Source of the DNA: Coriobacteriaceae bacterium AM48-5
GTDB taxonomy: Bacteria; Actinomycetota; Coriobacteriia; Coriobacteriales; Coriobacteriaceae
DNA length: 10,052 nucleotides
Direction: 5' to 3'
NCBI GenBank assembly: GCA_027669525.1
Contig: JAQEDJ010000057.1
Location: 1 to 10,052, forward strand
The position numbers and the translations under genes were made by a program. The notes under the pieces are model-generated. The model was not told where the DNA came from and did not search any database. It worked only from the letters and a program-made list of their open reading frames with translations. Shown piece after piece: positions 2,501-10,052 of the stretch. Each line of letters opens with the position of its first letter. Position 1 is the first letter of the stretch.

Positions 2501-2555
2501 TAACGTTTTCGCAGATAAAACCTGCCAAAACAAACCTGTCCCTTTTTGGAAGGTT
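2501..2555. repeat. REP-like hairpin element, copy A (inverted relative to 7373-7427)
   Basis: The plus strand has AACCTGCCAAAA (2519-2530), a 13-base loop and TTTTGGAAGGTT (2544-2555): a 12-base stem with one mismatch. The loop on the minus strand reads AGGGACAGGTTTG. The whole 55-base stretch matches the reverse complement of 7373-7427 at 51 positions (differences at 2509, 2511, 2531 and 2550). The last two bases of the asp23 stop codon (TAA at 2556-2554) are the first two bases of the element on the coding strand. It reads as a dispersed palindromic repeat of the REP type. It could also protect the 3' end of the asp23 message or slow transcription there. Confidence 0.85.
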
Positions 2556-3069
2556 ATTCGTGCTGGCTGGTGCGGTGCTCGTACTCCTCGGGGGTGATGA
2601 CGTCCTCGATGCGCAGGTTGACGCCCGCCACCTCAAGGCCGGTCATCGCGGCAAGGCGCTCGGTGACACGTGCCTTGACATCGTCGAAGATCGCGGGCGC
2701 ATAGGCGCCGTACTCGATGATGACGGAGATGTTGACGACCACGCGATTGTCATCGGTGACCTCGACCGTCACGCCCTTGGTCAGATTCTCGGCACCAAAC
2801 TGCTCCTGCACAAAGTGCATGAGGTTACCCTTCATGCCCAGAACGTGCGGAACCTCGCGGGTGGCCATGGCAACGATTTTCTCAATCACGCCGTTGGAAT
2901 AGGTGAGTGAGTCCTCGGACTCGTCCGCTTCCTCGTCATCCTCATCCGTATCGGACTCGGCCTCGACGAGAGCCTCGTCCTCGAGCGTCACATCCTCAGC
3001 TTCGGCGACGACCGACTCGTTCTCCTCGAGCTCGGTATCGGCTACATCGACCTTCGTATTAAAAGCCAT
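2554..3069 (-). CDS. asp23: Asp23/Gls24 family envelope stress response protein
   Basis: This 171-residue protein carries the Asp23/Gls24 (DUF322) domain from about residue 55 to 160: a GVIEKIVAMATREV start, KGVTVEV, a hydrophobic strand ending in IIEYGAYAP, and a closing VAGVNLRIEDV. In Staphylococcus aureus Asp23 is an abundant cytoplasmic protein that is tethered under the membrane by AmaP and takes part in cell-wall stress response. Here the N-terminal 54 residues are strikingly acidic: residues 12-54 hold 23 Asp/Glu and no Lys or Arg. ATG at 3069 is preceded by AAGGAGG with 5 bases between, a strong start. It is the last gene of amaP-DUF2273-asp23, 44 bases after the DUF2273 stop. Its TAA stop overlaps the hairpin element at 2501-2555. 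Confidence 0.93.
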   Translation of the reverse strand: MAFNTKVDVADTELEENESVVAEAEDVTLEDEALVEAESDTDEDDEEADESEDSLTYSNGVIEKIVAMATREVPHVLGMKGNLMHFVQEQFGAENLTKGVTVEVTDDNRVVVNISVIIEYGAYAPAIFDDVKARVTERLAAMTGLEVAGVNLRIEDVITPEEYEHRTSQHE

Positions 3070-3113
3070 GGTTCCTCCTTATGCCTGCCGCGGATGCGAC
3101 AGTCGAATACATA

Positions 3114-3491
3114 TTAGCGGCCGCTAAACAGACGGCCGAAGAAGTTGACGATCCCGTTCTCGCCGTCGCGAATTTGGCCGATCACAGCGCCGATCAGCAC
3201 GAAGAATGCAATGACGAGCGTATCCCACAGGCCGAGCGTGAGCACCAACACGGCGAGGATAAAGCCAGCGACGGCACCGAGCGTGGTGTTGGGATGACGC
3301 ACAGCATAGCTCCAGATGGCAGCGCCCGTACCCTTGATGAGACCCATAGCCTCGTCAAAATCCGCGGCTGCCGCATCTTGCAACTCGGTTGCCTCTGCTT
3401 TGGAATCAACAGGTTCGCTCGTCGGCGTGGCGCCCTGGTCAATCGTCAGGCGCGGCGTACGAGCGGTCTTATCTTGATTGGTATCACTCAC
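3114..3491 (-). CDS. DUF2273 small membrane protein of the asp23 operon
   Basis: A 125-residue protein starts at GTG 3491, which overlaps the end of amaP by 8 bases (the GTG is read across amaP's GGT GAG TGA end), suggesting translational coupling. Residues 1-60 are hydrophilic. Residues 68-87 and 89-106 form a tight pair of membrane segments (LGAVAGFILAVLVLTLGLWD, then VIAFFVLIGAVIGQ), followed by RDGENGIVNFFGRLF. This helix-turn-helix membrane pattern with a short C-terminal FxxRLF tail is typical of DUF2273 proteins, which are regularly encoded between amaP and asp23. The usual family member is about 60-70 residues, so the 60-residue N-terminal extension is longer than normal. The frame is open upstream to 3710, but that part is a shadow of amaP. 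The function is unknown, probably part of the membrane platform for Asp23. Confidence 0.88.
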   Translation of the reverse strand: MSDTNQDKTARTPRLTIDQGATPTSEPVDSKAEATELQDAAAADFDEAMGLIKGTGAAIWSYAVRHPNTTLGAVAGFILAVLVLTLGLWDTLVIAFFVLIGAVIGQIRDGENGIVNFFGRLFSGR

Positions 3492-4029
3492 CGGAAACCT
3501 CCACGGTCTGGACGGTAGTCTTGGACGGCAAAAAACGGACGCGCGTTGTCGTACCCGGCGTGCCGAGCATGGTGTCGCAAGCTTCCTCGATGCGCTGCTG
3601 CATCGCGGTAGCCAGAGATGCCACGTCTTTATCGTCAAGCGCGATAGCCTCGACCTTAAAACGGACGTGCGAATCGTCGGAGCCTTGGACGCGTGCCTCG
3701 ACATGCTCAACCATCACGCGGTCGTCGCGCTCGGCAGCAGCCCTGGCGCACGAAGAAAGCGCCGCAAGGGTAACCTCGATATTGCGCTCCCCCGCCGGAT
3801 GCACACAGGACGGCTCGCGACGGGCAAACATCAGGCGGAAGAAGCTTACCAGCACGCCAAACGCCACGATGCCGGCGCACGCCGTCACGACGATGCGCGG
3901 CATGGGGTCGCGCATCAGCAGCATAAAGCGATACGTATACGGCCCCCAAAACTGACAGACAAGCGTACCCAGCGCCACGATGGTGGCGGCAAGATACACG
4001 ATCGCTAGGGCTCGTTTGAGTACGCGCAC
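3484..4029 (-). CDS. amaP: Alkaline shock response membrane anchor protein AmaP
   Basis: A 181-residue protein starts at GTG 4029, with AAGGGAG six bases before it. Hydrophobic segments at about 7-27 and 45-67 give an N-terminal hairpin in the membrane. The rest is cytoplasmic, with weak similarity to Asp23-like alpha/beta domains (ERNIEVTLAALSS, HVRFKVEAIALDD, TTRVRFLPSKTT). AmaP anchors Asp23 at the membrane in staphylococci. The identity is supported mainly by the two-helix architecture, the length and the order amaP-DUF2273-asp23. It is first in the operon and follows a strong terminator and a TATAAT box (4080-4085). Its stop overlaps the DUF2273 start by 8 bases. Confidence 0.85.
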   Translation of the reverse strand: MRVLKRALAIVYLAATIVALGTLVCQFWGPYTYRFMLLMRDPMPRIVVTACAGIVAFGVLVSFFRLMFARREPSCVHPAGERNIEVTLAALSSCARAAAERDDRVMVEHVEARVQGSDDSHVRFKVEAIALDDKDVASLATAMQQRIEEACDTMLGTPGTTTRVRFLPSKTTVQTVEVSGE

Positions 4030-4079
4030 GCGGCGCTCCCTTCAAATCTCGGCTCTCGAAATGCAGAACGGTTCGCATC

Positions 4080-4085
4080 ATTATA
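4080..4085 (-). promoter_or_regulatory. Candidate -10 box for the amaP operon
   Basis: The minus strand reads a perfect TATAAT about 50 bases before the amaP GTG, which would give a leader of roughly 45 bases. No good -35 hexamer is present at 16-18 bases upstream, because that position falls inside the yebC terminator hairpin. The box also overlaps the terminator's T-rich tail, so it may be chance. Confidence 0.35.
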
Positions 4086-4126
4086 AAAGAGCCGGGTCCG
4101 GTGCTCTACGCACGCGGATCCGGCTC
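4081..4126 (-). terminator. Intrinsic terminator after yebC
   Basis: On the minus strand a GAGCCGGATCCG arm (4126-4115) pairs with CGGACCCGGCTC (4100-4089), giving 12 pairs with one G-U or mismatch. The loop of 14 bases can add a further GTG/CAC pairing. TTTTATAA follows directly. The stem is strong and the tail lies on the minus-strand side only, so it ends yebC transcription rather than serving a plus-strand gene. Confidence 0.8.
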
Positions 4127-4172
4127 ATCTATTCCACGAGGCTTGCATGCTCGCTTCATTATGCCCAGATAT

Positions 4173-4190
4173 GCACGGCTTAACCCGTGC
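4173..4190. other. Short hairpin just after yebC stop
   Basis: GCACGG (4173-4178) and CCGTGC (4185-4190) form a perfect 6-base stem with a 6-base loop, beginning 5 bases beyond the yebC stop codon. It has no T-run, so it is not itself a terminator. It may fold in the 3' untranslated region ahead of the terminator at 4081-4126. Confidence 0.5.
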
Positions 4191-4195
4191 GAGCG

Positions 4196-5001
4196 CTACT
4201 CCTCCTCGAGGGCAGCGATGACCTCGTCGGTCATGTCCATGGTGCTGTAGACGTCCTGGACGTCGTCGAGCTCCTCAAGACGGTCGATGAGGCGCTGGAC
4301 CTTCTTGGCGTCGGCGCCGGAGACCTCGGTCGGGGTGGTCGGGACCATGGTGGTCTCGGAGCCCTTGACCTGGACGCCCTGCTCCTCGAGCGCCTTGGAG
4401 ACAGCCATGACCTCGTTGGCAGTAGTCCAGACAATCCACTCCTCGCCGGCATCCTCGTAGTCCTCGCCACCGGCCTCGGCGATGGCCATCATGAACTCAT
4501 CCTCGTCACCGGCAGCACCGTTGGCGATCATGGTCTCCTTCTTGGCGTTCTCATCCAGGATCTCCTTGGCGACGACGATCTGGCCCTTACGCTCAAACTG
4601 GAAGGCGACGGAGCCGGAGGTGCCCAGGTTGCCACCAGCGTGGGAGAAGGCGGAACGGACATCAGCGGCGGTACGGTTGCGGTTGTCGGTCAGGCAGTCG
4701 ACGTAGACGGCGACACCGGCGGGACCGTAGCCCTCGTACACGATGTTCTCGTAGACGGCGGCATCGGCACCCGAACCAAAAGCCTTGTCGATAGCGGACT
4801 TGATCTTGTCCTTAGGCATGGACTGAGCCTTGGCCTTGGCAACGGCAGCGGCGAGGCTGGCGTTGTTCTCGGGCAGCGGGTCACCGCCGAGACGGGCAGC
4901 AACGGTGATGTTGCGGCTGAGCTTGGAGAAGAGGGCGGAACGCTTGGCGTCCTGCGCGCCTTACGATGCTTGGTTGTGGCCCACTTAGAGTGTCCGGACA
5001 T
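4196..5001 (-). CDS. yebC: YebC/PmpR family transcriptional regulatory protein; one frameshift near 4953-4962
   Basis: ATG at 5001 follows AGGAGA by about 6 bases and encodes the family's invariant opening MSGHSKWATTKHRK. The frame then goes wrong; restoring one G in the AAGGCGCGC stretch gives the expected GAQDAKRSALFSKLSR, GGDPLPENN and AKAKAQSMPKDKI. From 4819 the correct frame is uninterrupted to TAG at 4196, with YEGYGPAGVAV, LTDNRNRTAADVR, FSHAGGNLGTSGSVAFQFERKG and a Glu-rich end. The restored length is 268 residues, a little above the usual 240-250 because of an acidic C-terminal third. YebC proteins are widespread; members are described as DNA-binding regulators (PmpR) and, for one subgroup, as helpers of translation through polyproline. 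Automatic calling would start at the internal ATG at 4819 and lose 61 conserved residues. The gene ends in a strong terminator (4081-4126). Confidence 0.93.
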
Positions 5002-5132
5002 ACGTGTCTCCTATCGGTTTCGACCTAAAGCCCAGCGCAGATGCTCGGGCAATATAAACAAACGTCGTTATGATATACCTACTGGCCTGCAAGATAAACC
5101 CCAAAATGAAGGCGTCGTGATGATGGCCCCTT

Positions 5133-5170
5133 TGGTGCAGCAAAGAAACCTGACCCCAATGCACCAGGTT
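5133..5170. repeat. REP-like hairpin element, copy D, at the end of the 727-residue gene
   Basis: Two alternative stems are visible. AACCTG (5147-5152) pairs with CAGGTT (5165-5170) around a 12-base loop, and TGGTGCA (5133-5139) pairs with TGCACCA (5160-5166) around a 20-base loop. They share bases and exclude each other. On the minus strand the region contains the core TTGGGGTCAGGTTT. The first two bases on that strand are the AA of the upstream gene's TAA stop (5171-5169). The core and the stop-codon placement match elements A and C. Confidence 0.65.
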
Positions 5171-7352
5171 AGGACCAGAGGAAGTCACTGCGGGTGACGG
5201 TGGCGCCGATGGCGAAGGGCATGCAGGCGATGACCGGATACAGGTAGCGCATGTAGGTCGAGCCGTTGCACGGACCAATCAGGCACACGGCGAGCACGCC
5301 CAACAGCGGCACCCAGATCGCCAGCGCACGCCATGAATGACGACGCAGCAGGTAGACCACCACGGCGATCATGATCCACACATAGGTGGCCGAGCTCATG
5401 GTGAGCGAAATAAACGGGGTGCGCTGCACCGCCACACGGTACAGATTGATCAGGTGGTCGCACCAGCGCACCACGTTGCTGTCAACCGGATGGAAGTCGA
5501 AGTACTTGAGGTTGTCGGGACGCGCCATGATCTCGGCACTACGCGCCGTGCTGTAGACCCAGGCATCGCGCGCGCTCGGATAAAAGTAGCCGTAATAGTT
5601 ATTGATGAGCGCCGAGATATAGCACTCGGGATCCTTTTTGAACATCTGCGCCCAGACCTCAAAATAGGCCTTGATGTCCTCCTGCGAGGCGTACTCGTTA
5701 AAGCAGTTCTTGACGGCATCGGACTTGTCAGGGTTGTAGCGGCGGCCCAGGTTCTCGTACTTGAGCACGCGATCGATCACGACGCGCTCCTCGTCGGTCA
5801 CCAAGCCGTCGCAAGGAGCCTCCACGATGGTGCCGTCCTCCTTTACCGTGGGGTTGACGCCCGAGTTGAGGCCGTCGTGCTTTTGGACGAAACGAGCCGT
5901 CTGTTGGAACGGAATCGAGAGGATTTCGCGCTTGGAACCAGGCGTGATGTCGTGCGCCGGCATAAAGACCTTGGTGAAGTACATATTAGAGGCAAGGCAG
6001 AGTGCAAGCACCGCGAGGACGCCAACCCAGCGGAAGCGCGGCGTGGCGCATGAGACCGCGGTGCCCGTCTGCTTAGCCGCACGACGGGCGACATGTACAT
6101 CCCATGCGCAAAACGCCGCCGCAATCACGCAGGCCGCCAACGGAAAGACCAGACCGCCATTGCGCAAAAACGTGGAACCCATGGCAGCCAGCGCAAGCAA
6201 CAGCCAGTCGTGGCGCGCAAAGAGCACGGGCCTCTGTTCGCCCGCACGCTCGGCATTGGCATCACGACGGGGCAAGCCACATGCCACGAGCTTGACGGTC
6301 TGTACCAGCAGCACCAAAAACGCGTCGGCAAAGAGCACGTCTTTGGTGAGCAACGCCGCGTAGTTAGAGAACATCGGCATAAACGCAAAGAACAGCAGGA
6401 TCGCACCGCGAACCGGCAGGCTCACGCCCAGTTTGCGCAGCGACGAAATGGAATAGGCCATGCAGGCAGCCGTGATGACAAATTGAGCGCAGGTATAGAT
6501 GATGAGGCCCGCGTTAGCGCTGTTGAACAGCGAAAGCCCCAGTTGAACGCACGAGCCGATAATGGCCGTGTGCACTACGGGATGATGCCCGTTGAGCAGC
6601 ACGTTGGGGTTGAGTAGGCGCAGGTAGTCGCTCGTGCCGTTGGGATAGTTGAACCACTGGCGAATCTGCGCACCCGTATCTCCCATAAAAAGGCCGGGCA
6701 GCGAAGCGATGAGCGTGGGCGCCCAGGCGATCATAAGCACCAGGAAGGGCCCGGCAAAGGGATGGACCGAGAGCACGGCGTGAGCCACACGCCATATGCG
6801 GCCAAAGTGCGCCTCGGAAAACGGGATGCGTCGGGAGCTCAGCCAATCCAGACACTCAAAAGCCAGATAGAAGGCCACGATCGCTAGGAGCATCCAGCCC
6901 GCGCCGCCAATCCAGGCGCAGATGATGCGGGCCTTGTCGCCAAGAACAATCTCGGCCGAGTCGGTGAGGTCGTAGCTGCGGCCGAACACCATGCAGATGG
7001 CGAAAAACAGCGACGGCAGAATGATCGATGGACGCCAGGTGTCGCCACGGCCAAAGAACACGTAGCGAAACGGCAGCGTGAGCAGGCAGGCAAGCGCAAG
7101 CAGCATGACCGCGTCGGTATGGCCGGCAAACGAGAGGAGCACCTCGTAGCACACGTACAGCATGCCCGAGGCTTTGGGGTCAATCGCCAAGACTGCGTTG
7201 CTCGACACCGGGGCGGGATCGATGGAAAACGCCGTGGTCGCCAACAGCGCGAGCAGAAATGCGATGAGCGTCTGCTTGGCGGGGTAGCGCTTAAACCAGA
7301 CGATGCGGGCCGCGTCGCGCGCAGCCGTTGTGGAGAGATCGGAATCCTTCAC
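5169..7352 (-). CDS. Large polytopic membrane protein, DUF6020/GT-C-like
   Basis: This 727-residue protein starts at GTG 7352; AGAAAGG lies about 10 bases upstream, a rather long spacing, and no better start exists nearby. There are about 13 hydrophobic segments (for example 26-43, 82-98, 108-124, 145-165, 200-218, 283-300, 315-332, 340-356, 402-416, 442-458, 655-669, 676-692 and 703-718). A large soluble region lies at about 462-645, before the last three helices. Motifs include GDTG (224-227), NGHHPVVH (254-261), LTKDVLF (335-341) and FLRNGGL (395-401). An acidic loop motif, then HHP, then KD is the pattern I associate with DUF6020 proteins, thought to be GT-C-fold glycosyltransferases using polyprenyl-phosphate sugars. 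That link is inference from memory. An outward-facing soluble domain would fit modification of a surface glycan. It is probably monocistronic, with hairpin repeats on both sides. Confidence 0.85.
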   Translation of the reverse strand: MKDSDLSTTAARDAARIVWFKRYPAKQTLIAFLLALLATTAFSIDPAPVSSNAVLAIDPKASGMLYVCYEVLLSFAGHTDAVMLLALACLLTLPFRYVFFGRGDTWRPSIILPSLFFAICMVFGRSYDLTDSAEIVLGDKARIICAWIGGAGWMLLAIVAFYLAFECLDWLSSRRIPFSEAHFGRIWRVAHAVLSVHPFAGPFLVLMIAWAPTLIASLPGLFMGDTGAQIRQWFNYPNGTSDYLRLLNPNVLLNGHHPVVHTAIIGSCVQLGLSLFNSANAGLIIYTCAQFVITAACMAYSISSLRKLGVSLPVRGAILLFFAFMPMFSNYAALLTKDVLFADAFLVLLVQTVKLVACGLPRRDANAERAGEQRPVLFARHDWLLLALAAMGSTFLRNGGLVFPLAACVIAAAFCAWDVHVARRAAKQTGTAVSCATPRFRWVGVLAVLALCLASNMYFTKVFMPAHDITPGSKREILSIPFQQTARFVQKHDGLNSGVNPTVKEDGTIVEAPCDGLVTDEERVVIDRVLKYENLGRRYNPDKSDAVKNCFNEYASQEDIKAYFEVWAQMFKKDPECYISALINNYYGYFYPSARDAWVYSTARSAEIMARPDNLKYFDFHPVDSNVVRWCDHLINLYRVAVQRTPFISLTMSSATYVWIMIAVVVYLLRRHSWRALAIWVPLLGVLAVCLIGPCNGSTYMRYLYPVIACMPFAIGATVTRSDFLWS

Positions 7353-7372
7353 AGTCCGAAAGCCTTTCTAGA

Positions 7373-7427
7373 AACCTGCCAAAAAGGGACAGGTTTATTT
7401 TGGCAGGTTTTATCTGGGGAAACGTTA
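7373..7427. repeat. REP-like hairpin element, copy B (inverted relative to 2501-2555)
   Basis: On the plus strand AACCTGCCAAAA (7373-7384) pairs perfectly with TTTTGGCAGGTT (7398-7409): a 12-base stem with the 13-base loop AGGGACAGGTTTA. The match to copy A continues beyond the stem to 7427, ending in AACGTTA, giving 51 of 55 identical positions. It sits about 20 bases before the GTG of the 727-residue gene, just upstream of its ribosome site, so it may lie in that gene's leader or promoter. Confidence 0.88.
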
Positions 7428-7451
7428 CGGTTCTGTCATCATTGCCCAGCA

Positions 7452-7498
7452 AACCACCACAAAGGTGCCTGCCCCCTTTGTGGTCGTATGTGGTGGTT
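7452..7498. repeat. REP-like double hairpin element, copy C, at the end of lgt
   Basis: An inner perfect 10-base stem ACCACAAAGG (7456-7465) / CCTTTGTGGT (7475-7484) has a 9-base loop. A competing outer perfect stem AACCACCACA (7452-7461) / TGTGGTGGTT (7489-7498) shares one arm with it. The minus-strand loop and arm contain AAAGGGGGCAGGCACC, similar to the GGG(G)NCAGG core of elements A, B and D. The AA of the lgt TAA stop (7499-7497) forms the first two bases of the outer arm. It may also act as a 3' end stabiliser or attenuator for lgt. Confidence 0.8.
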
Positions 7499-8316
7499 AA
7501 GCGTCGAGGTAGATGCGCTGGGGGCGATTGCGGTGTCGGGCGAAGATGATGAGCGCCAGGCCCGCAATAACGAGCGGAAGGCTCAGCAGCTGACCCATCG
7601 TGATGACGCCGCCCAGCAGATAGCCAAGCTGGGCGTCGGGCACGCGCACGAACTCGACGAGGAAGCGGACGATGCCGTAACCCATCACAAACACGCCCAT
7701 AAACGTGCCTGGGGCAGCAGCGGCTTTTTGCGGCTGAGCACCTGCAGAATGCAAAAGAGCACGACGCCCTCAAGAAACGCCTCATAGAGCTGGGAGGGAT
7801 GGCGCGGCATATCGCCCGCAGTGCCGCCAAAGACCACACCCCAAGGCAGATCGGTCGGCTTACCCCACAGCTCGCCGTTGACGAAATTGGCACAACGGCC
7901 CAGGCACAGGGCCAGCGGGGCGCCGATCACGGCAAGGTCGGCGATGGTCCAGGCGTCAAGCTTATACATGCGGCACACGATGATACCGCCCAAGATGCCG
8001 CCCACCAGGCCGCCGTGGAAGCTCATGCCGCCCTCGTTGGTGGCAAAGATCTCGAGCGGGTGGGTCCAATAGTAGCCATCGCCGTAAAAGACGACGTAAA
8101 ACAGGCGCGCGCCGATGATGAGGCCAAAGACCGCGCCGACCACGACGCTCGTCAGGTCATCGATCGTAATGTCGAAGCCCCAACGACGCTGCGTGCGGTA
8201 CATAACGACCGCCGTGAGCAGGGCGCCGACACGTAGGCCAGGCCGTACCAGTAGATAGTGATGGGGCCCGCCGAGATCGCGACGGGATCAAGCATATGGT
8301 AGAGGTCGTTGAGCAT
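7497..8316 (-). CDS. lgt: Prolipoprotein diacylglyceryl transferase Lgt; two frameshifts (near 8226-8235 and 7706-7714)
   Basis: Lgt moves a diacylglyceryl group from phosphatidylglycerol to the lipobox cysteine of prelipoproteins at the cytoplasmic membrane. ATG 8316, behind AGGGGAT, starts MLNDLYHMLDPVAIS and GPITIYWYGLAYV, the typical first helix. The middle frame (8203 leftwards) gives FGLIIGARLFY, GGMSFHGGLVGG, the GRCANFVNGELWG signature (conserved Arg and Asn) and RHPSQLYEAFLEG. A third frame gives GTFMGVFVMGYGIVRFLVEFVR, with the catalytic-region Arg and Glu, and ends at TAA 7497. Each join needs one extra base (for example CAGGCACG to CAGGGCACG at the second). The restored protein is about 273 residues, the normal size. 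All key motifs are present. Because lgt is usually conserved, two errors in the sequence are likelier than a true double mutation. Confidence 0.93.
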
Positions 8317-8873: not shown

Positions 8874-9398
8874 CTACTGCCGAGCCTGTCCCCCGGTACC
8901 AATCTGGACATCGACGATGACCTGGCGGTAGCTGATGCCGCAGGAGTCGAGAATGCGGCGGCTGATACGGCCGTCATCGGTGTCGGCATACTTATTGTCC
9001 AGGTAGACGACCTCGCCCACGCCCACCTGCGCCAGGATCTTGGCGCAGTCATGGCACGGGAACAGCGTGACGTAAACCGTGGAACCCTCGAGGTCCTTGA
9101 GCGAGCCACGGTAGTTGAGCACGGCGTTGGCCTCGGCATGGACCACGTAGTTGTGCTTGTCCTGCAGCGGGTCATCGCTCGTACCCCACGGGAAAAAGTC
9201 GTCGTTGAGCGCCGAGGGCGTGCCGTTGTAACCCACCGAAAGGATGCGGTGGTTGGTGCTGGCGATGCACGCTCCCACCTGCGTGTTGGGGTCCTTGCTG
9301 CGGCGCTGCGCGGCGATGGCCACGCTCATAAAGAACTCGTCCCAGCTAATAACGTCGCGGCGCTTGCCCGACGCGGTTTGATGAAGATCGTCCGACAT
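8874..9398 (-). CDS. dCMP deaminase family protein (ComEB-like)
   Basis: A 174-residue zinc-dependent deaminase from ATG 9398, chosen because GGAGGTG lies 7 bases upstream; an ATG 12 codons earlier (9434) has no comparable site. Motifs: SWDEFFMSVA at the first helix, VGYNGTP (55-61), the zinc/catalytic HAE at 87-89 followed by ANAVLNYRG, and PCHDCAK with the two zinc cysteines at 115 and 118. These match deoxycytidylate deaminases and ComEB, which make dUMP for thymidylate synthesis. Length and motif spacing are normal. It lies 82 bases downstream of coaX and may share its transcript. The last residues (GTGGQARQ) are low in family signal; the DNA there carries a GGGGGACAGG string like the loop core of the nearby hairpin repeats. 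Confidence 0.92.
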   Translation of the reverse strand: MSDDLHQTASGKRRDVISWDEFFMSVAIAAQRRSKDPNTQVGACIASTNHRILSVGYNGTPSALNDDFFPWGTSDDPLQDKHNYVVHAEANAVLNYRGSLKDLEGSTVYVTLFPCHDCAKILAQVGVGEVVYLDNKYADTDDGRISRRILDSCGISYRQVIVDVQIGTGGQARQ

Positions 9399-9480: not shown

Positions 9481-10052
9481 CTACGCGCGGCGGGGCTTTT
9501 GGTTGATGCGGTAGAGCTCGGCGAGACCCCGCAACGTCAGCGCGTCGTCTACCGTCAGGCTATGGCCGACCAGCGCCGCAAGTGCCTCGGCATCGTCGCC
9601 GGTAATGACGATGGGCACATCGCCCTCCCCCGCGGCCTTGGTCGCGCGCATCTCGGCAAGCACCATGTCGAGCATTCCGTCGATGCGGGCTACCTCGCCC
9701 AAAACCACACCCGAGCGCATGGCCTCACGCGTGTTGCGTCCGATGACGTGCGTTGGCGCCGAGGGCTCAACCTGGGGTAGGCGCGCTGCTGCCGCCGAAA
9801 GCGAACGGGCGCCGAGGGCCAGGCCTGGCGCGATAACGCCGCCCACAAAGGTACCGTGCACGTCGATGACCTCGATATTGGTCGTCGTGCCCAGGTCAAT
9901 CACGATGCACGGCGAGCCGTAGACGGCGCGGGCCGCCACGGCATCGGCGATGCGGTCGGGGCCGATCTCGGCCGGATCGTCGTAGTGCACGGGTATGCCG
10001 GTCTTAAGTCCCGGCCCCACGGTGAGCACGCGCCCCGTGCAGGTGCGGGAAA
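9481..10052 (-). CDS. coaX: Type III pantothenate kinase CoaX, 5' end beyond the window
   Basis: The frame enters from the right edge and runs about 190 codons to TAG at 9481. CoaX phosphorylates pantothenate in the first step of coenzyme A synthesis and is an ASKHA-fold enzyme with no homology to CoaA. Visible motifs: VGPGLKTGIPVHYDDP, IGPDRIADAVAA, VIDLGTTTNIEVID, the glycine-rich GGVIAPGLALGARSL, IGRNTREAMRSG, an IVITGDDAEALA strand and LTLRGLAELYRIN at the end. Compared with a usual length of about 255, roughly the first 65 residues, including the N-terminal catalytic Asp/phosphate region, are off the window. The GTG at 10029 is an internal codon, not the start. The substrate-binding GADR motif reads GPDR here, a mild departure. 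Confidence 0.93.
   Translation of the reverse strand, partial: SRTCTGRVLTVGPGLKTGIPVHYDDPAEIGPDRIADAVAARAVYGSPCIVIDLGTTTNIEVIDVHGTFVGGVIAPGLALGARSLSAAAARLPQVEPSAPTHVIGRNTREAMRSGVVLGEVARIDGMLDMVLAEMRATKAAGEGDVPIVITGDDAEALAALVGHSLTVDDALTLRGLAELYRINQKPRRA

Follow-up and report, generated by a model that had tools for sequence, protein, structure and literature searches.

The hairpin elements found in the 10,052-nucleotide stretch of DNA analyzed here (the window) belong to three separate families of repeats with a GGGACAGG-type core, namely, AB (elements A and B), C, and D. A portion of the AB copies abuts TAA stop codons with base-exact precision, and in related genomes inverted AB copies bracket genes encoding Y1 transposases. 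We consider it likely that the hairpins are non-autonomous palindromes of the RAYT or TIRYT kind, with arms matching the repeats of Y1 genes where such genes were found, and that AB lands behind stop codons that already exist. Judging from the sequences, the hairpin repeats of gut Collinsella are probably mobile.

The window is a segment of a Collinsella chromosome. It matches its nearest relative genome (G001) at 97% along its full length, and its 727-residue gene matches 20 named Collinsella loci, one of which (L150) is probably the same record as contig C18 of G001. The frames of the yitT-like, yebC-like, and lgt-like genes of the window are broken by single-base length differences in comparison to relatives with intact-looking lengths, likely as the result of sequencing or assembly errors.

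A preliminary description of this DNA had reported four hairpins with a common core, and all four were recovered. Element A (2504 to 2554, minus strand; core at 2535 to 2542; previously placed at 2501 to 2555) is an AB copy beginning with ACCTTCC, and its orthologue in G001 is located at C18:8776. The last base of the TAA stop codon (2554 to 2556, minus strand) of an asp23-like gene (open reading frame [ORF] 2554 to 3069) is also the first conserved base of this element. Element D (5129 to 5168, minus strand), which belongs to a low-copy family and has the core GGGTCAGG at 5149 to 5156, lies immediately 3' of the TAA stop (5169 to 5171, minus strand) of the 727-residue gene (ORF 5169 to 7352). 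Element B (7374 to 7424, plus strand; core at 7386 to 7393; G001 orthologue at C18:13596) is an AB copy that is not located at a stop; it is located upstream of where the 727-residue gene begins, with its left end toward that gene. Element C (7452 to 7488, minus strand), with the core GGGGCAGG at 7468 to 7475, is found 8 nucleotides (nt) past the TAA stop (7497 to 7499, minus strand) of the lgt-like gene. The stop codons had been thought to contribute their AA to the first arm of the hairpins. TAA followed by CC does end the asp23-like gene (A), the 727-residue gene (D), and lgt (C), but the lgt stop is near the hairpin rather than within it, since the hairpin proper begins 8 nt past the stop, as seen for the G001 orthologue.

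The pattern GGGNCAGG has six matches in the window for 1.49 ± 1.21 expected, and none of 200 shuffles reached six. Four of these matches are elements A to D, and the other two (8885 to 8892 and 9816 to 9823) are coding. A candidate fifth element at the end of a dCMP deaminase-like gene (8885 to 8892) was rejected, as relatives vary at this coding position in the manner of a protein end. Elements A and B are one repeat of about 51 nt, with 93% complementarity across 55 nt, and the arms of C and D differ from theirs. Folding of single-stranded DNA was better than that of shuffled sequences for A (z = −2.76), B (z = −4.54), and C (z = −3.72) but not for the window copy of D (z = −0.78); D is a clean palindrome in the relatives L159, L164, L165, and L167.

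All three families carry no gene, have lengths of about 36 to 52 nt, and follow the same layout, consisting of an arm, the core (GGGACAGG, GGGTCAGG, or GGGCCAGG), a few bases, and the complement of the arm. In G001, GGGNCAGGYWYY has 45 matches, versus 16 for the reversed pattern. In 213.8 kb of this genome, AB has 34 copies and C has 30 with an identity of ≥70%, leaving out truncated AB pieces and counting one doubtful C copy at 70%. The elements are thus multicopy, with D as a low-copy family of which few D-like cores were found in the same stretches. AB is present in 22 of 43 genomes of the genus, with 20 to 45 matches each; C occurs in the same 22 genomes, with 14 to 38 matches each, and has one additional match in G028 (23/43). 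The reversed AB and C patterns have no match across the 43 genomes. Conservation across 58 distinct AB sequences is 97 to 100% at the eight core positions and 62 to 100% at the arm positions, a range that omits the first base of AACC. Because this base is an A in only 57% of the sequences, the AB element proper begins at ACC.

Genes were called in G001 and G059 with a simple purpose-made caller based on codon usage, and no AB copy was found within a called gene. The left end of AB faces the end of a same-strand gene for 17 of the 34 copies in G001 and 17 of the 36 copies in G059, and the stop is located at −2 to +1 nt in 12 and 15 of these, respectively. Adjacency to a TAA stop on the strand of the core is thus observed for 12/34 and 15/36 copies, versus an expected fraction of 0.0099 for a random point and orientation in noncoding DNA, in agreement with the earlier suggestion that the elements are not located by chance behind genes whose coding strand carries the core. 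The p values obtained for the two genomes are not independent, because most sites are shared by descent; distinct stop sites number about 16 of about 40, and one of them (C8:13500) is at a stop according to the gene calls of G059 and not those of G001. By visual inspection, all of the stop-abutting copies in both genomes are at TAA, a codon that ends 97 of 183 called genes. The distance from the right end of AB to a facing stop is at least 54 nt in G001 and, except for one copy overlapping a called gene end by 30 nt, at least 61 nt in G059. The remaining copies, about half of the total, point with their left end to the start side of a gene, at distances of 13 to 407 nt in G001. Several start-side copies of G001 and G059 lie 13 to 56 nt upstream of the gene with the core on the template strand, and no common flank was seen among the start-side copies of these two genomes.

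Tabulation of distances to stop codons supported the preliminary description for AB, apart from the start-side half, and less so for the other hairpins. Placement of C is looser, with 14 of 21 same-strand stop distances ranging from −2 to 17 nt (one copy called inside a gene being omitted). Control families with other arms were sampled in G020, G030, G013, and G008 at 15, 15, 13, and 14 loci (25, 20, 23, and 19 copies) of 59, 73, 67, and 120 matches, respectively, and only 2 of 48 same-strand copies were within 3 nt of a stop, ruling out a stop rule for every hairpin with the core. Thus, the stop codon geometry is real but family specific. The sequence motif alone does not account for it either: outside the elements in G001, TAA(A/AA/CA)CC is at a stop in 18 of 99 noncoding or stop places, whereas 12 of 14 TAA-flanked AB copies are at called stops, with the caveat that the motif was picked after the data had been seen.

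Matches to PF01797 were detected in 37 of 58 genomes, and the flanking of a Y1_Tnp gene by the same repeat, suggested from the sequence of the window, was found for AB in G018, G004, and G064. In G018 and G004, inverted AB copies bracket a Y1_Tnp/RAYT-like gene inserted between two neighboring genes; the same neighbors are found in G001 without the Y1 gene or AB and with C copies close by. The downstream copy in G004 is degenerate, so that a strict rule scores this locus as one-sided. In G064, AB copies flank the gene on both sides. Overall, an AB-bracketed Y1 gene (matches at >90% identity) is present in 3 of 43 genomes of the genus, versus AB itself in 22. The G064 protein retains both catalytic motifs (NHIH and YIHLNP), scores 33.2 bits against Y1_Tnp and 69.7 bits against the NCBIfam model REP_Tyr_transpos, below its cutoff of 80, and is similar to TnpArep (PDB 4er8; E = 1.6e−5). 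The gene is truncated in G018, and its HuH motif is changed in G004. The AB-bracketed protein has no HTH_23 match; the only such matches, in L049 and weakly in L043, were below the cutoff. We infer that the AB-bracketed Y1 protein may mobilize AB. Possession of the Y1 gene was not associated with more perfect AB copies among the genomes listed, which had 6/33 (G018, with the gene), 9/26 (G014), 13/36 (G059), 10/28 (G010), and 7/27 (G009).

In all, 66 of the 70 matched non-IS200 Y1 loci were examined, some of which are fragments or cut by contig ends. Inverted core hairpins flank both sides of the gene in 8 loci (including that of G018), one side in 4, and neither in 54. Apart from the AB-bracketed gene, seven Y1 genes lie between hairpins that share the core type but have other arms. 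The bracketing arms differ between genes. Of the eight both-sided loci, those of G056 and G037 are from outside the genus. The arms of two of these genes, that of G008/G013 and that of G020/G030, recur 120/67 and 59/73 times, respectively, in those genomes. In G008 and G013 (e.g., L321, L324, L331, and L344), the hairpins with GGGAAAATA arms form many close inverted pairs, like REPINs, and arms of this type also bracket a Y1 gene. None of the 66 loci showed a Y1 gene between copies of C or D, and the only Y1_Tnp gene of G001 is among the loci lacking core hairpins. Y1_Tnp genes whose products have 263 and about 340 residues are found repeatedly in the genus with no core hairpins beside them (L061, positions 6710 to 7498, and related loci) and may have been domesticated. 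The five IS200-like loci with a DHVH motif that were examined have no flanking core hairpins, just two lone cores without family arms.

In the explanation that we consider likely, the conserved core lies in the loop, the family-specific arms would tell which transposase recognizes the element, and the Y1 (HUH) enzyme would cut and rejoin single-stranded copies of the element. AB would land with its left end (ACCTGCC) immediately 3' of a stop that was already present, the core reading along the coding strand, in about 16 of about 40 distinct sites. We infer that the preference for stops may come from base pairing of GGTTTA in the loop, or GGTTTTA in the right arm, with TAA(A)CC, similar to the guide sequences of IS200/IS605 that pair with a short flanking target according to passages of PMC8266576. 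That AB homes to stops through such a guide, its copies landing harmlessly behind genes, is a possibility that we put forward tentatively. The loop reads GGCAC in C and in the families of G008/G013 and G020/G030, in which base-exact placement is absent; it reads GGTTA or GGTTT in D, which abuts TAA in most relatives. The guide idea predicts that copies of the GGGGTCAGGTTA family of G037 (locus L132) abut TAA, and homing to stop codons, if real, would amount to a harmless-site strategy.

Landing behind existing stops has to be weighed against the reverse order of events, in which a gene acquires its stop codon from the element that enters it, one of the options offered in the preliminary description. 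All stop-abutting copies in G001 and G059 show TAA, versus TAG in five of the seven AB-free outgroup genomes at site C25; the last A of the stop in T-AACC cases is the first conserved base of AB (the A of ACC); and GTAG REPs often provide TAG stops, as stated in sections of PMC3733652. However, termination of the upstream protein at C25 occurs at the same codon in the seven AB-free genomes (five with TAG and two with TAA), AB-free genomes at C47 likewise stop at an unchanged codon, and both genes flanking the Y1 locus end with TAACC in G001, without insertion. AB therefore uses stops already present, and stop creation, largely refuted for those four genes, is highly improbable. The first conserved base of AB can serve solely as the third base of TAA, indicating that the element supplies at most the last base of the stop. 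Mere chance likeness of unrelated hairpins, in both the shared core and the TAACC starts, might be invoked on the grounds that the window has two coding, unrelated matches among its six for GGGNCAGG and that its copy of D folds poorly; this reading has a negligible probability and is refuted by the genome-wide copy numbers, the lack of any match for the reversed patterns, and the shuffled windows.

Insertion could also be unspecific, with stop-proximal copies kept by selection as terminators, as hairpins of mRNA 3' ends, or as the least harmful, which we regard as unlikely. Read along the coding strand, AB folds into a hairpin with a T-rich stretch behind it and satisfies a simple terminator rule, the consensus RNAs fold better than shuffles (z = −2.50 for AB, −5.15 for C, and −4.99 for D), and by the same rule another terminator-like hairpin, in one case a C element, lies in the next 150 nt for only 4 of the 15 stop-abutting AB copies of G059. 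A terminator role for AB is therefore possible. C copies near stops on both sides, and the known location of REPs close behind ORFs (sections of PMC3733652), also fit selection. Yet, the four downstream hairpins exceed the number found in shuffles (6/300), indicating that AB precedes a separate terminator at some genes, and half of the AB copies are oriented toward the start side of a gene. Just 1 of 696 stem cells is altered on both sides, so that covariation does not back a maintained structure for AB and lends no support to a maintained RNA structure. In addition, selection for a hairpin does not require the base-exact contact observed for 12/17 and 15/17 same-strand copies. Landing of AB behind existing stops remains our preferred explanation.

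The sites also show signs of turnover. Elements A and D are present in all 19 anchorable named loci and C in all 20, three of the A copies having lost part of the core, whereas 7 of 20 named relatives lack B; the sequence AAACCTATCAAA at the B-less loci could equally be read as a scar or as a target. At C47, nine genomes of the AB set without AB retain AACCTG- or AGCCTG-like letters behind the stop. These AB-free alleles and the B-less ones, with their AACCT-like sequence, could be deletion scars. A search at C59 revealed no genome of the AB set without an AB-derived hairpin at the stop, and a clean empty and filled pair with identical flanks was not found among the sites compared. At C10 in G018 (L278), a C element directly follows the first AB bases at the stop codon, as would be expected from replacement of one family by the other, and three genomes (L385, L386, and L388) have a hybrid AB site with a reversed loop at C59, as if produced by deletion between two inverted copies.

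To our knowledge, how RAYT-linked palindromes choose their landing sites is poorly known. For an element of a known kind, AB is exceptionally precise in where it sits, and its distinct base-exact stop positions, combined with many sequenced relatives, provide a natural data set on target choice. In addition, palindrome populations of up to 120 matches per genome occur here beside transposases resembling a group surveyed as lacking them (PMC6006769, in the sections concerned).

Similar to IS200/IS605, the present system combines a Y1_Tnp domain, hairpins, and possible guide pairing with a short flanking target; unlike IS200/IS605, the elements themselves (about 36 to 52 nt) encode no transposase. 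The REPs and REPINs of RAYT/TnpAREP, as portrayed in portions of PMC3116915, PMC8266576, and PMC6006769, share with it a single Y1 gene set between copies of its own repeat, inverted doublets (numerous in G008 and G013), an extragenic location close behind ORFs, and a protein similar to TnpArep (4er8). GTAG REPs and REPINs carry the tetranucleotide GT[AG]G at the 5' foot of the hairpin, which none of the consensus sequences of AB, C, and D shows. The proteins (NH[VIF]H, Y..xNP, 246 to 355 residues) resemble subclass 2.1, which includes most TIRYTs and for which no REP-like sequences are reported in the relevant sections of the survey by Quentin et al. (2018; PMC6006769). TIRYT transposases of this subclass combine HUH and Y...NP motifs with an HTH-type domain at the C terminus, and no such domain was detected in the AB-bracketed protein. 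TIRYT genes, in the sections of Di Nocera et al. (2013; PMC3733652) devoted to them, lie between inverted repeats containing GGGGWSAS, some of them self-complementary, and are accompanied by dispersed families of the same repeats (TIRtrons); flanking inverted repeats and dispersed families are likewise observed here. GGGGACAG and GGGGTCAG fit this motif, as do the C consensus, D, and several other families, and the AB core AGGGACAG and the C core of the window GGGGGCAG are each one base off. The elements are probably TIRYT-type repeats. Differences from TIRYTs as depicted in those sections are the location of the core in a hairpin loop, gene-specific arms, 20 to 120 copies per genome in Collinsella, and base-exact adjacency of AB to stops. 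Among the papers listed in literature searches on Collinsella in combination with REP or REPIN, and on TIRYT or TIRtron, none concerned Collinsella repeats of this kind, and neither a loop core with swappable arms, nor such populations in Collinsella, nor base-exact stop adjacency in one family was found in the literature searched. The closest published kind is thus the TIRYT/RAYT-associated palindrome, from which the Collinsella hairpins differ by a core located in the loop, swappable arms, and one stop-bound family.
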